The translations under genes were made by a program, and so were the position numbers. Below, piece after piece: positions 3,721-15,118 of a stretch of DNA of 23,390 bases. The DNA is from a virus. The stretch lies in the IMG/VR virus record IMGVR_UViG_3300009068_000198, positions 1 through 23,390 of that record. One strand, given 5' to 3'. Under the pieces are notes generated by a model, which made no database searches, was not told where the DNA came from, and saw only the letters and a program-made list of their open reading frames with translations. Positions within the stretch are counted from its first letter, which is position 1. Each line of letters opens with the position of its first letter.

Positions 3721-6243
3721 TTATTTTTTAAATGATGAACTCATGCCTTTAATTATAAAAGATCCAGTAAGCTTAAATGGCTTTTTAGAAATTTTCGGAT
3801 CACGAATTACAATACCTTCATGCTCTGATACAGGCCCTAATGGAGAATTTAATTTTTCTAATACAGCATCTCCTAATTTCATAGTAGCCATATAAATTAC
3901 ATACCCGTCAACTGCAGATTTATAATCTTTAGGATCTTCAATATATTCAGGCAATGGAGTTCCTTCTGAAATTTTAATTAATACATCTTTTGACAATGCA
4001 GAAATTTTCTTACCGTCGACAGTTTTAATTTCATTATCTGGAATAGTTGCTTGAGCTAACCATTGAGAAAGAGTTTTAGTTTCTTTTTTGTCTCCGTAAT
4101 TAACTGTATATTTTTTATTTAACGCTACGGTTAAGTCTGGATTGCCATCTAATGTGGTTGGAATAGAACCTAAAACTTCATATCCATTTTTATTGGCTAT
4201 TGGAACTAAATTATTTAGTAAATCTTGCAAAGCTGGTTTGGAATATTTAATTTCTTTAGTAGCTCTTCTTTTAGGAGTTACTTGTTCAATTTCTAATAAT
4301 CCATGAACTGCTAAGAAATTTTTATTATAAGACAATACATTAGTTGATCCAGCTACATATTCCAAGTTAAACATGATATTTGGGTTATCCCAAAGACCTA
4401 ATTTTTTAAGAGCTGGAGTAATTGCTGATAAAGAGTTATTGAAAATATCTAATACAGTTCCACCTACTTTAATCATTCCATGTCCAGCGCCAAATCGATC
4501 TTCTAATTCTGCTTTGGTAATACCTTTTACGTCTAAAGGTTTATTAGAACCTCTATCCATTACAAACACTTTTTTACCATCTAATGTAATTAAACGAATT
4601 GAAGCATTTACTCCATCAATTTTAACTGACGCAGGTCCTTTCTTTAAATAATCAACAGATTGTGCAAACACTTTAACTAAATCTTTTCCTGATTTTACTC
4701 CGTCGATATTAAAGGGATGCTGCATATGACCTCCCGCTCCTCCACACATTAATAATTGATACCCCATATCTAAGGTATTTTTTGAATTAAGTATATCTTC
4801 AACTAATTTCGATAATGAAATTGATGACTTTATATTTTTTGATTCATTTATTGAATGATTTATTATTTCAAGATTTTTATAATGGCCTATAATATGTGGA
4901 TCGATATCATGCATGAATCCTTCGAATATTGAGTACTTATGATCTAAATGCATTGTTCTAGAACGCAAATGAGCGTTGAGAATTTCCTTGAAATAGTATT
5001 GGTAATTAGTTTCAGTAATTACTCGAACTGAATCTCTATATAAATTAAATTCAGTTTTTGAATTTTCTGACACCCAATATCCATTATCAATCATTTTTTT
5101 CTTAAATGATTTTTTATCGCCAAACCCATAACGGTTTCCAATTTCGGACTTATTAATTTTTAGCTTAGGATCTTTATTATAAGACTCAGTAACTTTTTTA
5201 CTTATTAATTTTCGTACATCATCACGTTTAGAAGGATTATCATCTCCGTATTTTGGATTATTATACGTTTCACTTCCATATCTTTCTAATTTAGTCTTTT
5301 TTATTTTTTGCACGTTAGTGGGATCTTTCATAGCGTTATTTTCAGACATTTTTTTACTAACACTATTAGGAATACATTTTGAATTTGGAAATTTAGATTT
5401 ATATTCTTTTAAGGTAATACCATGTTTACATATCATATGACTACCTGTAAGCTGCTGTTTTTGTTCGTTACATATTTCACAGGTAACAAATTCTTGAATA
5501 TTTTCTTGAGTTAATGGTTTTGTTAAATCTAACGATTCACTCCACCATTTTTTAGTAAAGATTGAAGTTTGATTTTCTGATACTTTACTTTTTAAATTCT
5601 TTTTTTTCATAATTTCTGCAATAAATGAAGATTTAGATTCATTTATGTTTTCTAATTTATCAAATATCATTTTAGCAGTTTTTTCATTATACCAACCAAA
5701 CGCTGCTTTGAATAATTTAATTTTTTGAGATCTTGGAACTGATGTATCTCCTAAGGCTTTTCGTAAACTAGTTCCTGACATTTCTCCATATCCTGGAACT
5801 TTTATTAAAACGTGAGGTGCTACTACTAAATACCCATGTTTATCAAACCCTTGTAAATTTGCTTTATGTTTACTGTATTCTTGAAAATATGAATCACTTC
5901 CATCTTTTTTAGTTCCTATTTTAAATCTAGGATTTTCTTTCATATCTTTTGCACCTACTAAAAATACTAACGCAGTATCTTCAGGTTTAAGTTGTGATGT
6001 AATCTCCTCCGCTTTATATGGATTCTTTACCTGTACAAGCCTATCACTAAACCCGTAATTACTTATTATATCGCGTTTCTCTTTGAAAGAAAAGGGCGAT
6101 TTAACCGGGTCTACGACATTCGAAGTTACTATATAACAATTTTGAGCTCCGAATTGAGATTCTAACCATTTGAATGCTTCTGCATGATGTTTTCCAAATG
6201 GCTGAAATCTGCCTGGATATAATGCTATTATGTTTTTAATCAT
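3721..6243 (-). CDS. NMNAT-like nucleotidyltransferase / HNH insert / KxDG ligase-like trifunctional protein
   Basis: An 840-aa uninterrupted frame with three parts. Residues 1-195 form a class-I adenylyl/cytidylyltransferase (Rossmann) domain: ALYPGRFQPFGKHH (7-20) with the HxGH-type motif, SPFSFKEKRDII (49-60), and GEMSGTSLRKAL (153-164) as the ISSTxxR motif. This type includes NMN adenylyltransferases. Residues about 220-490 look like a homing endonuclease: a MucR-like zinc finger (C255, C258, H269, H274), a NUMOD-like segment near 322-355, and an HNH core LDHKYSIFEGF (433-443) with NLEIINHS (457-464). Residues about 496-840 are a covalent nucleotidyltransferase (RNA/DNA ligase or capping) domain: VKIDGVNAS (540-548, predicted adenylated K541), FNLEYV (625-630, motif III), EGIVIRD (809-815, motif IV) and KLTGSFIIK (824-832, motif V). 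The ligase part with GGAGGHMQHPF recalls a family common in marine phages. It starts 12 nt after the 129-aa fibre gene. No intein splice residues are visible. Confidence 0.85.
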   Translation of the reverse strand: MIKNIIALYPGRFQPFGKHHAEAFKWLESQFGAQNCYIVTSNVVDPVKSPFSFKEKRDIISNYGFSDRLVQVKNPYKAEEITSQLKPEDTALVFLVGAKDMKENPRFKIGTKKDGSDSYFQEYSKHKANLQGFDKHGYLVVAPHVLIKVPGYGEMSGTSLRKALGDTSVPRSQKIKLFKAAFGWYNEKTAKMIFDKLENINESKSSFIAEIMKKKNLKSKVSENQTSIFTKKWWSESLDLTKPLTQENIQEFVTCEICNEQKQQLTGSHMICKHGITLKEYKSKFPNSKCIPNSVSKKMSENNAMKDPTNVQKIKKTKLERYGSETYNNPKYGDDNPSKRDDVRKLISKKVTESYNKDPKLKINKSEIGNRYGFGDKKSFKKKMIDNGYWVSENSKTEFNLYRDSVRVITETNYQYYFKEILNAHLRSRTMHLDHKYSIFEGFMHDIDPHIIGHYKNLEIINHSINESKNIKSSISLSKLVEDILNSKNTLDMGYQLLMCGGAGGHMQHPFNIDGVKSGKDLVKVFAQSVDYLKKGPASVKIDGVNASIRLITLDGKKVFVMDRGSNKPLDVKGITKAELEDRFGAGHGMIKVGGTVLDIFNNSLSAITPALKKLGLWDNPNIMFNLEYVAGSTNVLSYNKNFLAVHGLLEIEQVTPKRRATKEIKYSKPALQDLLNNLVPIANKNGYEVLGSIPTTLDGNPDLTVALNKKYTVNYGDKKETKTLSQWLAQATIPDNEIKTVDGKKISALSKDVLIKISEGTPLPEYIEDPKDYKSAVDGYVIYMATMKLGDAVLEKLNSPLGPVSEHEGIVIRDPKISKKPFKLTGSFIIKGMSSSFKK
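4770..5590 (-). mobile_element. Probable homing-endonuclease insertion inside the nucleotidyltransferase-ligase gene
   Basis: This in-frame segment encodes roughly residues 218-490 of the 840-aa protein. It separates two enzyme domains with a zinc-finger, NUMOD-like and HNH arrangement typical of phage homing endonucleases. Catalytic candidates are H432, D434, H435 and N457. The edges are approximate. Both flanks carry a similar INESK...KSS peptide (residues 200-206 and 465-474), sharing ATAAATGAATC in DNA, which could be a trace of how the insert arrived. No terminal HN/C-S-T intein signature was found, so the insert probably stays in the protein. Confidence 0.6.
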
Positions 6244-9601: not shown

Positions 9602-9610
9602 ATAAATATC
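9602..9610 (-). promoter_or_regulatory. Putative phage late promoter element (GATATTTAT)
   Basis: The minus strand reads TTTAGATATTTATTTAAAAT, 21 nt before the ATG of the 962-aa fibre gene. It overlaps the stop codon of the upstream endonuclease by one base, so fibre transcription could start independently of that gene. Confidence 0.55.
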
Positions 9611-10416
9611 TAAACGTAATATATCTTTGAATTTCCATTAGTCTTAGTAATTTCAATTAATTTATCTACTACATCTCGCATTGAATCGATATGTGATATA
9701 TTTAATCGAATAAATGTACAATGTAAATAATCTTCAATATGGTTCTGACGAATTAAATCTCTATCTTTAAGAGTTCCGTCTTTATTAAAATGATTTGGCT
9801 CGTCAAATTCAAATACAATATTATATTCTTTATTATATCCGTCGACCCAATAACCTAGCTCCGCAATATTATATTCCCCAATGTTCATTCCATGTTGTAT
9901 AAAAATTCCAGTTTCTGATGCTATTACATCAAATAACACACATGCATGTGTATTGAAATTTGGGCTAAATTTATTTGATAATCCTTTACTACTACGCTGC
10001 AATATTTGAGTATTACGAATTTTATCTATACTTTCTTTTTTATGTTTTTTACCTAACCAATTTTTACTAAAATTTGGATTATTGTTATTTAATTTTTGAC
10101 GATCGCTTACTCGCTTACGATATTCAGGATTTTGAACTGCCAATAATTGACGTTCTTTCATCTTTTTAAGATGTTCTGGATTTTTCATTGGATTATTATT
10201 TCCAGATTTAATCTTTGAATTTAACTGTTGTATTTTATATGTATGCCAGTCAGTACACAATTTACAGTCTTTATAAGTTTCTTTATAAATTTTTATCGTA
10301 ATACCGCTACATTTATTTAAGTGTTTTTGTGTAATTTGTCTAAGCTGTTTATTACACTCTAAACAAGTAATTAGTTCATTTCGATCAAACGGATTGGTTT
10401 CGATGTTTATGCTCAT
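9610..10416 (-). CDS. Free-standing homing endonuclease (zinc finger, NUMOD3-like, Vsr-like nuclease)
   Basis: A 268-aa protein. Residues 14-40 form a MucR/ROS-like zinc finger (C18, C21, H32, C36, then GIT) that aligns with the finger in the endonuclease insert of the 840-aa protein. Residues 70-136 carry NUMOD3-like DNA-binding segments: GNNNPMKNPEHLKKM, and NNPNFSKNWLGKKHKKESI. The C-terminal domain (about 155-245) looks like a Vsr/DUF559-type PD-(D/E)XK-related nuclease: AELGYWVDGY (185-194), VFEFDEPNHF (201-210), KDRDLIRQNHI (217-227) and CTFIRL (233-238). Candidate catalytic residues are E203, D205, H209 and D220, an arrangement reminiscent of EDxHD homing endonucleases. It sits alone between the DNA-repair and fibre genes and overlaps a 50-aa ORF by 32 nt. 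Its recognition site is unknown. Confidence 0.8.
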   Translation of the reverse strand: MSINIETNPFDRNELITCLECNKQLRQITQKHLNKCSGITIKIYKETYKDCKLCTDWHTYKIQQLNSKIKSGNNNPMKNPEHLKKMKERQLLAVQNPEYRKRVSDRQKLNNNNPNFSKNWLGKKHKKESIDKIRNTQILQRSSKGLSNKFSPNFNTHACVLFDVIASETGIFIQHGMNIGEYNIAELGYWVDGYNKEYNIVFEFDEPNHFNKDGTLKDRDLIRQNHIEDYLHCTFIRLNISHIDSMRDVVDKLIEITKTNGNSKIYYV

Positions 10417-10537
10417 GATATTTTTCTCTAGCTAATTTAGACAATCGTTCTTTATTACGGTCATAATACTCCCGAACCCAAAGTTGTTGAGCTAGTTTCT
10501 TTTCTTCTTCTGTAATGTATTTCTTTTTACGTCCCAT
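10385..10537 (-). CDS. Small basic protein overlapping the homing endonuclease
   Basis: This 50-codon frame starts with ATG at 10537 and ends with TGA at 10385-10387. The product begins MGRKKKYITEEEKK and continues with VREYYDRNKERLSKLAREKY. It is strongly basic and helical, with the YYxxNKExxxKxxREKYxxxK pattern often found in the N-terminal parts of HNH/AP2-type phage and viral endonucleases. It overlaps the start of the 268-aa endonuclease by 32 nt in a different frame, and it fills the otherwise empty gap after the Mre11-Rad50 gene. It could be an independent small DNA-binding protein or the remnant of an older homing endonuclease. No Shine-Dalgarno is seen. Confidence 0.55.
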   Translation of the reverse strand: MGRKKKYITEEEKKLAQQLWVREYYDRNKERLSKLAREKYHEHKHRNQSV

Positions 10538-10545
10538 TGTCTATT

Positions 10546-10554
10546 ATAAATATA
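10546..10554 (-). promoter_or_regulatory. Weak match to the RATATTTAT element
   Basis: The minus strand reads TATATTTATAAT, only 8 nt before the ATG of the 50-aa ORF. It matches the core (ATATTTAT) but not the preferred purine at the first position, the spacing, or the downstream AAA. If active, it would drive the small ORF and the endonuclease. Confidence 0.25.
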
Positions 10555-10569
10555 TAACTATTGAAAAAA

Positions 10570-13500
10570 CTATTGAAAATTTACATATGAAAAATCTCCT
10601 TGTTTTACTATTTCAATTTGCTTGTCTGCCATATCTTTAGACGAGTCAATATGACTAATTAAAATAATAAATGAAAACATCGATCGTAAATAATCTAATA
10701 AACTATAAAATTCAGAAATTACTGTAGCATCTAAATTTCCTAGGCCTTCATCAATAGCTAGGAAATTAGGTCTAGGCAATGACGAAACGTTTATTAACGA
10801 AGTTCTAATAGCTAAAGACGATATGAATTTCTCCATACCAGATGTCAACTCAATTGGCCAGAAATTATCCTGATCATATACAATATAACAATTGATATTT
10901 TTGCCATCCATTTCAAGCATTAATTGAAAATCAACTAACTGACTTAGTATATTATTAATTTCTTGCTCAATAAATGGCACTGCTGTTGTAATTAAATCAT
11001 ATGGAACCCCATCTCGATTAACTGCTTGTAAATAATATTCATAAAACTTATACTGTTTTGTCAAGTCTTTTAATTTAATAATAGACTCTTCAGCTTTTTC
11101 TTTTAATTTTTCAGACACTAACATATTTGAGTGACATGCTAATATTTGATCGTTTAAAATACTTAAATCATCTTTTAACTTTGATACACCTTCATTCAAA
11201 TTATAAATAGCATCTTTAATTATTTTGTTTTCTTTAATAGCAGCTTCCTTTTTAAAATACTCACTTATCTGATAATTAACTTCACTTAACTTAGCTGACA
11301 ATTGATGCTGTTTAGAATCAATTTGATGTAAATTAGATTCTATAGAAGATTTTTCTGATTCTTTTAAATGTATATCTTTTTGTAGTTTATTATAATTTTC
11401 TTTTTCTTTAAGTGAAGGCGTTAATTCAACAATCTTATCTTTAACTACATTTAATTTATCTACAATTTCTTGAGCAGATTTTTTATCTTCTTCAATTGAA
11501 GCTTTAGTAGTAATAGCATCTTTAACAAATACATTGTTCATACAAAATGAACAATTTTCATCATACTCTAAATCATTAAGTTTTTCCATTTTTTCTAACT
11601 TATGACTTACTTCTGCTTTTAATTTTGCTACTTGACCAACTAAAGTTTTTTCAGATTCTTTAACTGAATCTAAAACATCTATTCTCGCTTCAATTTCTGT
11701 AATATTATACTTTGATAATTCATCTTTTAAAGTAGATATAATACCATCAACTTCAATTAATTCTTGCTGCTTGTCAGTAACTTCTCCATTTAAAGATGTT
11801 ATTAATTTTTCAACTTTAGATTTTAATTCATTTAGTGAATCTATATTTTCAATTGAAGCGTCAATTGGAACTAAATCTGAAGTCAATGATAAAATCTTAT
11901 CATTTAATTCATTAATTTTCAATTCTAACTCTGCTTTATCAATTTGATAATTTTTATGTTCTTTTGAATATGTATCAATGTCTGTAATTGCGTGAGCTAA
12001 TTGAGTTCCAAAGTCTTGTCTCTGATACTCTTTAACTAGCGTAGCTACTTCTTTAATATCGTCGTTTGCAATTCTATATAAGTCCTCAAATATATTAATA
12101 TCTAGGAACTGAGCTAGTAAATCTTTACGATCTTTTTGAGCCATATCAATAAACCCAGAATTGTTATTTTGTACTGACAATGCAGTTAAAACAAAATCTT
12201 CATAAGTTCCTAGCAATTGTCTAATATGATCATTTGTCTCACTTCGCTCTTTTCCATTTAACGATTCTTTATTTCCTAAATCATCTACAGAATAAAAATC
12301 TACATCAACTCTTACATGGTTACCTCTTCCTTTAGTTCCTTTCTTTTCAATAAAATAATTCTTTCCGTCTAATTCAAAGTTAAATGTACATTTGAATGAA
12401 TCAGATTTATTATTCATTACAGATGCAGCTTTAGAAGTTCTACCACATTTATCAAATATACAATATGTAATAGCATCTAACATTGTAGACTTTCCCGAAG
12501 CGTTTGGAGCAAATATTCCATACACGCCTTTCATATTTGTAAAGTCAATTACATTGTCTATTCCGTAACTAAACATATTTGAAAACTCAAATCGTTTTGG
12601 AATCCAAGATACATTTCGATTTACTTCTAAATTAGGTAGTCCTGAATTAACTGTTCTATTTACGTGACGAACTCCATCTAACATTTCATCGTCTAATGCA
12701 AATTTATTTTCTAAATATTTTGAAATTAATTCATTTTGGTATTCAACATCACGAACATCGCCAATATTAATTTTTTGTACTCTAGATTTATTAACAGTAA
12801 AGTCATTTATCTTTTGTATCGTAAATTCTTCTATATTAAATTTAGTCTTAATGTCAGCAATAATTGCTTTTAAATCTGCTGGCTCTGTATTTTGTACTTT
12901 AATTCGAAGACGAATTGTTTTATTTTCTAAAGACTTTGAAATTGGAGAATACTGACTATTATCAATTTCCAAAGTATAATAACAAATATCATTTTCAATT
13001 TCTACAAATTCTGCTTGACAAGTTTTTGTATCCCATACTAACATACCATGCACTAAAGCCTCTGCATAATTTTGTTGAATTAATGAACCTGGATATGCGA
13101 TTGTTTTTGCTGCATCTAAATATTGATTAGGTTTATGTATATCTCCTAACAATGTAAGTTTATATCCAGCAAATGTATCAATATCAACATTGTCATTTAC
13201 TAATCTAAAACCAATATCAGTCATTGCATTATTTACAGCTCCATGATGAAGTGCAATTTTAAAATCTCCTTCAAATGAATCAGCTTTTATAAAATCTTTA
13301 GGTTTATCGAAAACAGACATAACTACAAAGTGTTTGTCGGCTAAATGATATACCCCAGACTCTTTGAGATAATGTAGATTTGTATGATTTAGTGCGTTGA
13401 CAATTGGAGTTAATGCATCTAATCTAGATTTGTTATTTAAGTTGCAATCATGGTTACCTGTAATTAAAATTGTAGGTGCTATATCAGCAAACATTTTAAA

Positions 13501-13728
13501 GAATTCTTGAACTGATTGCACTAACTCAGGTGTCATGTCAGTTTTAGCGTGAACAATATCACCTCCTAAAAAGATAATATCATTAGGTTCAATTGTACTT
13601 TTAATTGCATCTATCGTTCTTTGAAATACCGTTTGATACTCTTTATGTCGCTTTAAATTTCTAATATGAATATCAGCAATGTGATATATTTTATTAATAG
13701 TGTTTATTCCAATATTAATTTGTTGCAT
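10570..13728 (-). CDS. Fused Mre11-Rad50 (gp47-gp46 / SbcD-SbcC) recombination nuclease-ATPase
   Basis: A single 1052-aa frame containing both subunits of the MR complex, which processes DNA ends for recombination-dependent replication and host-DNA breakdown in T4-like phages. The Mre11 part (1-375) shows DIH (19-21), GGDIVH (55-60), GNHD (91-94), HH (161-162) and GDIH (195-198). The last motif is normally GHxH, so D196 replaces a metal-binding His. The Rad50 part (about 378-1052) has Walker A APNASGKST (407-415), Q-loop Q520, a coiled coil (about 560-900) broken by a CSFC zinc hook (C726, C729), an ABC signature LTSGMEKF (961-968), Walker B FLAIDEG (989-995), D-loop GNLD and H-loop H1026. 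T4 encodes gp47 and gp46 as separate proteins in this same order. The ATG overlaps the primase stop as TAATG, implying coupled translation. Confidence 0.96.
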   Translation of the reverse strand: MQQINIGINTINKIYHIADIHIRNLKRHKEYQTVFQRTIDAIKSTIEPNDIIFLGGDIVHAKTDMTPELVQSVQEFFKMFADIAPTILITGNHDCNLNNKSRLDALTPIVNALNHTNLHYLKESGVYHLADKHFVVMSVFDKPKDFIKADSFEGDFKIALHHGAVNNAMTDIGFRLVNDNVDIDTFAGYKLTLLGDIHKPNQYLDAAKTIAYPGSLIQQNYAEALVHGMLVWDTKTCQAEFVEIENDICYYTLEIDNSQYSPISKSLENKTIRLRIKVQNTEPADLKAIIADIKTKFNIEEFTIQKINDFTVNKSRVQKINIGDVRDVEYQNELISKYLENKFALDDEMLDGVRHVNRTVNSGLPNLEVNRNVSWIPKRFEFSNMFSYGIDNVIDFTNMKGVYGIFAPNASGKSTMLDAITYCIFDKCGRTSKAASVMNNKSDSFKCTFNFELDGKNYFIEKKGTKGRGNHVRVDVDFYSVDDLGNKESLNGKERSETNDHIRQLLGTYEDFVLTALSVQNNNSGFIDMAQKDRKDLLAQFLDINIFEDLYRIANDDIKEVATLVKEYQRQDFGTQLAHAITDIDTYSKEHKNYQIDKAELELKINELNDKILSLTSDLVPIDASIENIDSLNELKSKVEKLITSLNGEVTDKQQELIEVDGIISTLKDELSKYNITEIEARIDVLDSVKESEKTLVGQVAKLKAEVSHKLEKMEKLNDLEYDENCSFCMNNVFVKDAITTKASIEEDKKSAQEIVDKLNVVKDKIVELTPSLKEKENYNKLQKDIHLKESEKSSIESNLHQIDSKQHQLSAKLSEVNYQISEYFKKEAAIKENKIIKDAIYNLNEGVSKLKDDLSILNDQILACHSNMLVSEKLKEKAEESIIKLKDLTKQYKFYEYYLQAVNRDGVPYDLITTAVPFIEQEINNILSQLVDFQLMLEMDGKNINCYIVYDQDNFWPIELTSGMEKFISSLAIRTSLINVSSLPRPNFLAIDEGLGNLDATVISEFYSLLDYLRSMFSFIILISHIDSSKDMADKQIEIVKQGDFSYVNFQ

Positions 13729-14675
13729 TATCCAAATAATTTATACTCAATAAATTTACTGAAAGTTAACGGTTGAGTTTCCTTAATTAACTTACACATT
13801 TTTTCAAATCCTATTTCTGCAGGATCTTTTTCTTCTAAATCTACAAAATACACTTCTACTCCATTGTTCATGAAATATTCAGCATGCTCTAAAGCTTGCT
13901 TTTGTGCATCTTTATCTAGACAAATATATAACTGACTAACTTTATTTTCAATAATTTTTTTACGCAAGTCTTCTGAAATTGTTTTGCCAAATAATGGAAT
14001 TGCATTTCGTCTAACTGAAATTGCATCAAACGAACCTTCCACTAAAACTAACGGAAGAGACCAGTTAATAAACAATTCAAATCCAACACAATTTTTAGAT
14101 ACTTCAGGATTTTTATGTTTAAATGATTCAGCTTCGTAATAAGCTCTTCCTACAAAATAATTTAACTTTCCAAATTCATCATAGGAAGGAATTATAATCT
14201 TTTTAGCATATTCACCTGATTCGCAATATCCAATATTATACTTTACAATTTCTGAAAGTGTAATCTTTCGTTTTGATCTTAAATAATGTATTGCATTTTT
14301 ATATTCAATAGACTCGGAAGTTTTGAATAAGGGAATATACTCTTTAGGCAGGTCTATTGCCGTCGTACTTTGAAAGGTACTGTCGATCTGATTGTTACTG
14401 TATTTTGGCTGGATGGAAAGTACTTTGTAAAGTTCAGCTATTTTATCGCGACCTACATTAAGTGCTTTAAATAAAGATGTTAGCTTTTTTCCTGATTTAT
14501 TACAAACCCAACAATGCCATGGATTTTCTCCTTTATCATTTGTTACGGATTGAACTTCTAACTTCTTTTGTCTTGATTGACAGAAAGGACAATGATGTGC
14601 TATGTTACCTTTATTAGTAACTTTTCCTTTTCCAAGTATACTTTCAATTAATTGCGTTAGTCTAGTATCTATCAT
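13728..14675 (-). CDS. DNA primase (DnaG/T4 gp61 type)
   Basis: A 315-aa primase that would make RNA primers for lagging-strand synthesis at the phage fork. A CHC2-type zinc finger lies at residues 28-58: HCPFC (C29, C32) and HCWVC (C55, C58). The catalytic core (about 130-290) contains IIIPSYDEFG (160-169) and GRAYY (176-180). Its TOPRIM part has LVLVEGSFDAIS (209-220, catalytic E213), then LFGKTISEDL (228-237) and ICLDKDAQKQAL (251-262, metal-binding D254 and D256). The length is close to T4 gp61 (about 340 aa) and much shorter than bacterial DnaG, with no obvious C-terminal helicase-binding domain. No helicase gene is in the window. The stop overlaps the start of the Mre11-Rad50 fusion by one base (TAATG). 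A Bacteroidota-type promoter sits just upstream. Confidence 0.93.
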   Translation of the reverse strand: MIDTRLTQLIESILGKGKVTNKGNIAHHCPFCQSRQKKLEVQSVTNDKGENPWHCWVCNKSGKKLTSLFKALNVGRDKIAELYKVLSIQPKYSNNQIDSTFQSTTAIDLPKEYIPLFKTSESIEYKNAIHYLRSKRKITLSEIVKYNIGYCESGEYAKKIIIPSYDEFGKLNYFVGRAYYEAESFKHKNPEVSKNCVGFELFINWSLPLVLVEGSFDAISVRRNAIPLFGKTISEDLRKKIIENKVSQLYICLDKDAQKQALEHAEYFMNNGVEVYFVDLEEKDPAEIGFEKMCKLIKETQPLTFSKFIEYKLFG

Positions 14676-14713: not shown

Positions 14714-15118
14714 TTAATTTAACCAATCTTCAGGAATTACCTTATCTGCGTACTGAAACCCATGTTTATCACACCAGTCTGCATATGATGTTTTAGACCC
14801 TTTAGAAATTTTAGTTTTTGAATTTTGAAATAAAAATCTAATGTCTAATTCAGGATATTGCTTTTTAATTAATATATGTTTTTTTCTATCATCTACCAAA
14901 AATCTTCCTTTAGTTTCTATAAAAATTCCATTAGGAAGTTTAAAGTCTGGATGATATTTGTGTTTGGTTTCTGGTTTAATGAATTCAATGATATGTTGCT
15001 CATACTCGCCATCAATTCCTTGATTTTTAAGAGAAGCATCTATATCCATTTCTAAACCACTACGGAAACCGTACTTAGCTGCGACGGCTTTTTTGCTATA
15101 TGGATTTTTTCTTGCCAT
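14714..15118 (-). CDS. T7 endonuclease I-like Holliday junction resolvase
   Basis: A 134-aa protein that reads as a close relative of T7 gp3 (endonuclease I), which resolves four-way junctions and branched DNA. The alignment is clear along its length: FRSGLE (18-23), YHPDFKLPNGIFIETKGRF (55-73), DDRKKHILIKKQYPELDIRF (76-95), SKTKISKGSKTSYADWCDKH (100-119) and ADKVIPEDW (124-132). All catalytic residues map: E23 (T7 E20), D58 (D55), E68 (E65) and K70 (K67). The basic C-terminal tail of the T7 protein is absent. T4-like phages normally use the unrelated endonuclease VII (gp49), so this enzyme in a T4-like DNA module is a notable substitution. It lies 14 nt after the 597-aa tail gene and before the primase. 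No Shine-Dalgarno is seen. Confidence 0.95.
   Translation of the reverse strand: MARKNPYSKKAVAAKYGFRSGLEMDIDASLKNQGIDGEYEQHIIEFIKPETKHKYHPDFKLPNGIFIETKGRFLVDDRKKHILIKKQYPELDIRFLFQNSKTKISKGSKTSYADWCDKHGFQYADKVIPEDWLN

Follow-up and report, generated by a model that had tools for sequence, protein, structure and literature searches.

A single-chain Mre11-Rad50 gene from a tailed phage, with a divergent 3' end next to a putative homing endonuclease gene

Fusions of Mre11 and Rad50 (MR) were described in 2011 by Yoshida, Claverie and Ogata in Mimivirus (R555) and in twelve other cases, including Bacillus phage 0305phi8-36 (PMC3175470). According to the same account, R555 has an Asp in place of P. 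furiosus His206, a linker of 9-12 residues was judged sufficient, and the metagenomic homologues of R555 on Global Ocean Sampling scaffolds adjoin phage primases and T7 gp3-like endonucleases, some of them being suggested to be phage-owned. This kind of fusion is already known, if rare, and the phage case was nearly predicted in that paper. A second relevant system is that of the fungal mitochondrial hybrid genes (Allomyces, Glomus atp6 and others), described as having an endonuclease open reading frame (ORF) and a divergent host-gene 3' end, with the native end displaced downstream (PMC3630166). We describe here a single-chain MR gene in IMG/VR virus record IMGVR_UViG_3300009068_000198, the 23,390 bases of which were analysed as a whole (the window). 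A preliminary description of this DNA had implied that the fusion was new, but publications on MR fusions date back to 2011 and cover one case in a phage as well as R555 relatives inferred to be phage-borne (PMC3175470). It had also set earlier publication of phage homologues as fusions as a ground for abandoning its reading; this is largely the case for the kind of fusion, although this particular phage lineage has not been named.

The window most probably carries a DNA-end-processing nuclease gene of the Mimivirus R555 type, belonging to a tailed phage, the 3' end of which has been exchanged via an element of about 0.96 kb with a putative homing endonuclease. The frame runs on the minus strand from 13728 to 10570, from an ATG start through 1052 codons to a stop, and encodes a single-chain Mre11-Rad50 (SbcD-SbcC) protein. 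Along the chain, a complete Mre11/SbcD nuclease and its capping region come first; a helix-loop-helix and a linker then lead into a complete Rad50/SbcC, which has both its coiled coil and its zinc hook. Pfam matches above the cut-off were obtained for Metallophos (residues 13-198, E 3.8e-9) and AAA_23 (residues 383-612, E 3.4e-15), and the SbcC-like PHROG family phrog_77 covers residues 378-1050. The features of the gene are as follows:

10570-13728, minus strand: gene for the single-chain Mre11-Rad50, with 1052 codons and a stop; 102 of the 108 related viral contigs have it intact.
12811-13698, minus strand: Mre11/SbcD nuclease and capping region, residues 11-306 (Pfam Metallophos; model match to SbcD 7dog).
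13096-13131, minus strand: loop after motif V, residues 200-211, the re-split site in relatives, intact in the window (relatives; model).
12646-12747, minus strand: helix-loop-helix, residues 328-361, probable Rad50-binding element of Mre11 (model; role by analogy with T. maritima as described in PMC3175470).
12610-12645, minus strand: linker joining Mre11 to Rad50, about residues 362-373 (model without regular structure there).
10573-12606, minus strand: Rad50/SbcC part, residues 375-1052, predicted coiled-coil arms at about 546-903 (AAA_23; model match to SbcC 7yzo_D).
11542-11553, minus strand: zinc-hook motif CSFC, residues 726-729 (motif positions; conservation in 33 rows).

The five phosphoesterase motifs of Mre11/SbcD are all present: D19-x-H21 (I), GD at 56-57 with H60 (II), GNHD at 91-94 (III), LHHG at 160-163 (IV) and GDIH at 195-198 (V). 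The last of these qualifies the assignment, the consensus being GHxH; D196 replaces the first metal-binding His, and this residue is Asp in 33 of 33 family rows. The Rad50 set follows in order, with Walker A at 404-415 (GIFAPNASGKST), the Q-loop at Q520, the CxxC hook, the signature TSGME at 962-966, Walker B (FLAIDE) at 989-994 and the H-loop at H1026, so that a bipartite ABC ATPase, a long coiled coil and a hook, as in Rad50/SbcC, are found in the same chain. Within the hook, C729 is invariant and C726 nearly so in the 33 rows. The motifs are given their customary names, and their positions were computed. The motif set is not due to chance, because the catalytic residues are invariant or near-invariant across 14 and across 33 family members. 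The preliminary description had reported this uninterrupted frame, with the Mre11 motifs preceding the Rad50 set, without giving a strand, and in this it was correct; the frame also bears out its proposal of one chain, nuclease before ATPase, fixing a 1:1 ratio. This fixed ratio of nuclease to ATPase follows from the sequence, any benefit of it being conjectural.

We investigated the fusion in related sequences. Protein scans of IMG/VR gave 108 different contigs, after four same-contig duplicates had been dropped, and a scan with a family alignment (A1) gave at least 561 related stretches, the best 80 of which were kept. A gene was considered intact if one frame held at least 150 residues of 1-199 and at least 230 of 214-600; the fusion counts leave out matches in Listeria and Staphylococcus phages. 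The gene was intact across the junction in 102 of the 108 contigs, split in two (L024 and L059) and partial in four, among them L031, which is too short to be tabulated with the others. Residues 345-410 lay in one frame in 151 of 155 loci, the exceptions being two sequence ends (L029 and L170) and two divergent loci beyond the reach of the alignment (L057 and L059); no stop was found at the Mre11/Rad50 junction in any of the 155 loci, including these four. The preliminary description had named a stop/start near residues 360-380 in close relatives as evidence against its reading; no stop was seen there in any relative. Among phage records, Mel-JY01, the isolate genome of a Microcystis phage, is intact, LR756508 (the same as L034) is split, and LR756501 has a single 1202-residue frame matching residues 11-1026. 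A scan of bacterial and archaeal genomes gave three loci, all intact and all on short contigs of metagenome-assembled genomes (MAGs) binned as Nitrosopelagicus, Chloroflexi and Gammaproteobacteria (L118, L119 and L120), which are probably phage contigs inside MAG bins. The window itself is known from a single metagenomic contig, and an assembly error or sequencing slip might have deleted the stop between two ordinary genes; the probability of such a slip is nevertheless negligible, because relatives from independent assemblies, with the intact counts given above, and the isolate genome carry the same unbroken frame. The fusion is genuine, and the single-chain MR was shown to be conserved across a large group of environmental phages.

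The 3' end of the gene was compared with that of L003, a relative lacking the insert, the protein of which is 85% identical to that of the window. The DNA sequences (blastn) are about 82% identical up to about position 10747, in the Walker B codons, and from there they differ as far as the stop at 10570. L003 has no counterpart for about 0.9 kb of the window, which is longer by about 0.96 kb net; identity (83%) resumes at exactly 9700, in the H-loop codons, and carries on past the old stop into the following gene. The original 3' end, displaced here, specifies the same residue or stop as L003 in 24 of 29 codons, and is now the in-frame C-terminus (last 30 or so codons) of a 268-aa ORF. For the 3' end in use, 24 of 54 residues are the same in L003 and 30 of 54 in L007; the comparisons with L056 and with L058 each give 27 of 53. 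The corresponding features are:

10570-10746, minus strand: apparent replacement 3' end in use, residues about 995-1052 (last ~58 codons); L003 identity stops at about 10747.
9701-10746, minus strand: apparent inserted element, comprising the replacement 3' end, a small ORF and a homing-endonuclease-like ORF (blastn against L003; layout in L028).
10385-10537, minus strand: a small, 50-codon ORF within the element, which overlaps the ORF that follows (translation; similar frame in L028).
9610-10416, minus strand: homing-endonuclease-like ORF, 268 aa (weak domain matches; L028 counterpart).
9610-9700, minus strand: displaced original MR 3' end, H-loop to stop (83% DNA identity to L003).

From these sequences, a mobile element appears to have exchanged the last ~58 MR codons for a divergent copy. 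The window shows the layout of the hybrid genes, with a divergent 3' end in use and the native end displaced downstream of an ORF, and this layout is no assembly accident, because L028 has the same arrangement, its ORF (L028:2695-3516) being 75-77% identical. In L007 (4530-4801), a similar replaced 3' end was observed together with a scar of the old end, without an endonuclease ORF. Both copies in the window encode the same stretch, as they would after a tandem duplication of the gene's own end followed by divergence, and all the copies are short, making their origin hard to trace. We nevertheless consider a duplication unlikely: the copy in use has the low similarity to the nearest relative given above, whereas the displaced copy retains its codons and its DNA identity, and the copy in use is nearer to other lineages (L007, L056 and L058). 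The arrival of a divergent end from elsewhere accounts better for this pattern. Nor is the window gene likely to be dead. The divergent end does meet the conserved body at the Walker B/D-loop, where an exchange could have broken the enzyme, but the frame is open, none of Walker B, the D-loop Asp and the H-loop has been lost, and the cores are strongly constrained in the comparison with L024, the ratio of nonsynonymous to synonymous substitution rates (dN/dS) being 0.034 and 0.055; loss of function is thus very improbable.

The 268-aa ORF is likely, judging from its sequence, to be a homing endonuclease. Its C-terminal domain is common to a protein of L175 bearing NUMOD3 motifs above the cut-off, the only relative of this domain found among 13 pattern matches. 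The enzyme would target the H-loop codons, and the element could in this way spread without killing its host gene. The window gene offers a natural experiment, in which a Rad50 head carries a divergent piece from the D-loop to the C-terminus, providing a test of the tolerance of MR to swaps.

A model of the 1052-aa chain was built with AlphaFold2 from 33 family members (predicted local distance difference test, pLDDT, 80.7; predicted template modelling score, pTM, 0.45). Residues 11-306 of the model match SbcD 7dog (Z 24.6, 272 residues, root mean square deviation 3.3) and residues 375-1052 match the E. coli SbcC heads 7yzo_D (Z 29.2, 349 residues, root mean square deviation 3.4). Helices 328-342 and 347-361 correspond in the model to the Rad50-binding helix-loop-helix, and by analogy this is the probable Rad50-binding element of Mre11; the first Rad50 strand is placed at 374-383, leaving a predicted linker of ~12 residues (about 362-373). 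The preliminary description had set an internal linker at about 340-378, which the model does not support, its helices extending to 361. The coiled-coil helices are predicted at 546-903, with about 170 residues per arm.

Several points weigh against the overall interpretation given above. The signature TSGME differs from LSGGE, and motif V has Asp instead of His. The relative placement of the Mre11 and Rad50 parts is not fixed by the model, given its pTM. The matches of the 268-aa ORF to the zinc-finger-like ROS_MUCR and to NUMOD3 were both under the cut-off, and its structure model (pLDDT 34.5) was unusable and set aside. Finally, the window is the whole record, a 23-kb fragment.

With these points in mind, a working scheme may be proposed. 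Two chains would pair via the Mre11 part, giving the usual complex of two nucleases and two ATPases. Each helix-loop-helix (328-361) would hold the root of the coiled coil, and the linker (362-373) would join it to the Rad50 head. ATP would shut the Rad50 heads, gating the metal-dependent Mre11 nuclease on DNA ends, and the product would be single-stranded 3' ends feeding recombination-dependent replication and repair. The single chain might instead serve another purpose, such as the destruction of host or rival DNA, given that T4 gp46/gp47 are annotated for host DNA degradation too and that SMC-like defence complexes (Lamassu, JetABC) turn up among the fold matches. We regard this as quite unlikely, as the top sequence and fold matches are SbcCD/MR and the constant neighbour of the gene is a primase. 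Neighbourhoods were counted in the 130 loci whose sequence extends 1500 bases or more upstream of the MR gene; a primase precedes it in 129 and an endonuclease I lies upstream in 84. In the window, these genes are:

13728-14675, minus strand: primase gene; its stop and the start codon of MR share one base (TAATG).
14714-15118, minus strand: T7-type endonuclease I gene (Phage_endo_I, E 8.1e-59).

Elsewhere in the window (3721-6243, minus strand) lies an 840-aa ORF with a cytidyltransferase-like N-terminus; its residues from about 241 to 491 are mostly absent from the 652-aa version of L003 and resemble, by eye, an in-frame inserted zinc finger plus HNH nuclease.

Some relatives have re-split the fused gene within Mre11. 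In L024, with 95% identity to the window across residues 214-600, the frame breaks after residue 204, just behind motif V, and the second half starts from about residue 210. The same site is split in L034, L059, L126, L136 and most of L138-L174; it corresponds in the model to the loop between strands 191-195 and 210-212. A DNA pattern for the tail peptide, biased towards split cases, gave 37 further contigs, of which 19 had both halves apart in the strict test, two were intact (L145 and L146) and 16 had one half only or too little sequence. Another pattern scan gave 12 contigs after the removal of four duplicates, eight intact and four split; L124 and L130 were labelled split by hand, L124 ending within the tail, before any stop. 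The two halves bear matching conserved extensions, a tail (...LQEY...GW...) and a head (...K.xR...P...Y.GS...), about 25-30 and 15-20 residues long, respectively. Median dN/dS in 19 marine loci was 0.079 for the N core, 0.054 for the C core and 0.147 for the tail, based on 118, 111 and 52 of 171 pairs, respectively, with near-identical and saturated pairs excluded. The split label requires six changes on a tree, at least five of them forced by well-supported branches; this was a quick tree (residues 214-600, 79 rows), with support only from the Shimodaira-Hasegawa-like approximate likelihood ratio test (SH-aLRT) and several long branches.

Between the halves, 28 insert ORFs were found, of which 25 form one family, two (from one contig) are Vsr/MTES_1575-like, with PHROG matches to "homing endonuclease", and one is TnsA-like, with an HNH-type PHROG match. 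The large family, represented by L140:6548-7483 and 24 similar ORFs in a marine phage group, is weakly glycosyltransferase-like and not a nuclease: DUF354 matches under the cut-off (E 0.0014-0.046) were obtained for three of the four members scanned, and one member had a heptosyltransferase match (E 0.0072), also under the cut-off. No insert remains in L136 or L059, and an apparent remnant is present in L126. Different inserts thus occupy one break site, so that the site is constant and the cargo variable. An explanation of the split by a group I intron or another known RNA was rejected, as no intron RNA family was found there in L024 or L034, the sole match being a chance-like one to sR14 (E 0.46); an intein was judged unlikely by eye, the extensions seeming far too short. 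A longer motif V loop was observed in the intact genes of L002, L003, L119, L123, L128, L129 and L131-L133. In L002 and L003, the loop looks like the tail and head of split forms combined, and these two are possibly re-joined genes.

Splitting of this sort is described for Aeh1 nrdA/mobE and T4 gene 60/mobA, the coding regions of which are split at a functionally critical region (PMC2988022). In the relatives of the window, the nuclease domain is cut right after a metal-binding motif, so that the tolerance of MR to breaks could be tested. Because both swaps and breaks occur in nature, tolerance of either is directly testable.

Taken together, the fused MR of aquatic phages may be a hot spot for mobile elements at the codons of both its active sites, a generalisation that we judge to have equal prospects of being right or wrong. 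An element at the H-loop would swap the 3' end and leave the gene working (the window and L028, with the scar in L007), and re-opening at motif V would yield two chains, a ~240-aa nuclease core and a capping/Rad50 protein of about 865 aa, with matching extensions and under purifying selection, as a third MR architecture beside the separate and fused ones. The enzyme under attack would then be the end-resection enzyme that homing itself probably requires. No mention of mobile elements in MR genes was found among the literature titles and abstracts listed, and such reports may exist. The hybrid 3' end and the recurrent re-opening inside Mre11, rather than at the junction, are the less expected features and are worth following.

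The same two enzymes occur in the same order in T4 gp47/gp46 and E. coli SbcD/SbcC, but as separate genes. The preliminary description had noted that the T4 gene order is kept, as it is, and had added that the loss of one intergenic stop would suffice for fusion. The latter does not hold for a T4-like layout, from which stop loss alone would not produce a fusion, as genes 46.2 and 46.1 lie between T4 47 and 46. Among the separate-gene phages examined, one ORF intervenes in S-SSM7 and in Bacillus phage Goe24, three in Moorella phage MTATph1 and a 118-bp gap in Enterococcus phage EFP01, whereas the two genes overlap in Vibrio phage VCPH; the Mre11 homologue was assigned in Goe24 by the position and size of the upstream gene and in EFP01 by the label "exonuclease". 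The nuclease preceded the ATPase in all six, and only VCPH has the arrangement presupposed by stop loss.

Among predicted viral structures, the best match was a Tupanvirus protein of 1379 aa (26% identity, E 3.0e-75), followed by other giant viruses, these matches being DNA repair proteins of 1200-1400 aa. Fused MR proteins of about 1300 aa were also found in the jumbo phages PTm1, PTm5 and pT24 of Tenacibaculum and PAU of Sphingomonas (AP019524, AP019525, LC168164 and JQ362498), where they are annotated as metallo-phosphoesterase or DNA repair proteins and not named as fusions. Like the window protein, they combine metallophosphoesterase and Rad50-like parts in one chain, but identity is only 22%, and no primase was seen adjoining the fused gene of PTm1.

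The 3' end of the window resembles those of the fungal hybrid genes as published, with three differences: it belongs to an MR gene of a phage, the ORF runs in frame into the displaced end, and the endonuclease is putative. The split relatives share with Aeh1 nrdA/mobE and T4 gene 60/mobA, as these are described, a break in a functionally critical region; here the target is Mre11 motif V, the inserts are mostly glycosyltransferase-like, and the window gene itself is unsplit. The closest known system is the R555 kind of fusion, a likeness judged from the published description of R555. Shared features are the nuclease followed by the ATPase in one chain, the retained length of the capping/helix-loop-helix region with a short linker (predicted here at close to the 9-12 residues of the 2011 paper), the replacement of the motif V His by Asp and, for the metagenomic homologues as described, the phage primase and T7-like endonuclease neighbours. 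Full-length genes with their neighbourhoods confirm what was inferred in 2011 from short sequences, namely that the R555-like single-chain MR is largely phage-owned, and a protein that is by nature one chain, with nuclease and ATPase one to one, is handy for MR biochemistry and cryo-electron microscopy. The window differs from the R555 type in being a phage contig with a full gene and a coiled coil of the arm length given above, in the link between its divergent 3' end and a mobile element, and in having relatives that have re-split inside Mre11.

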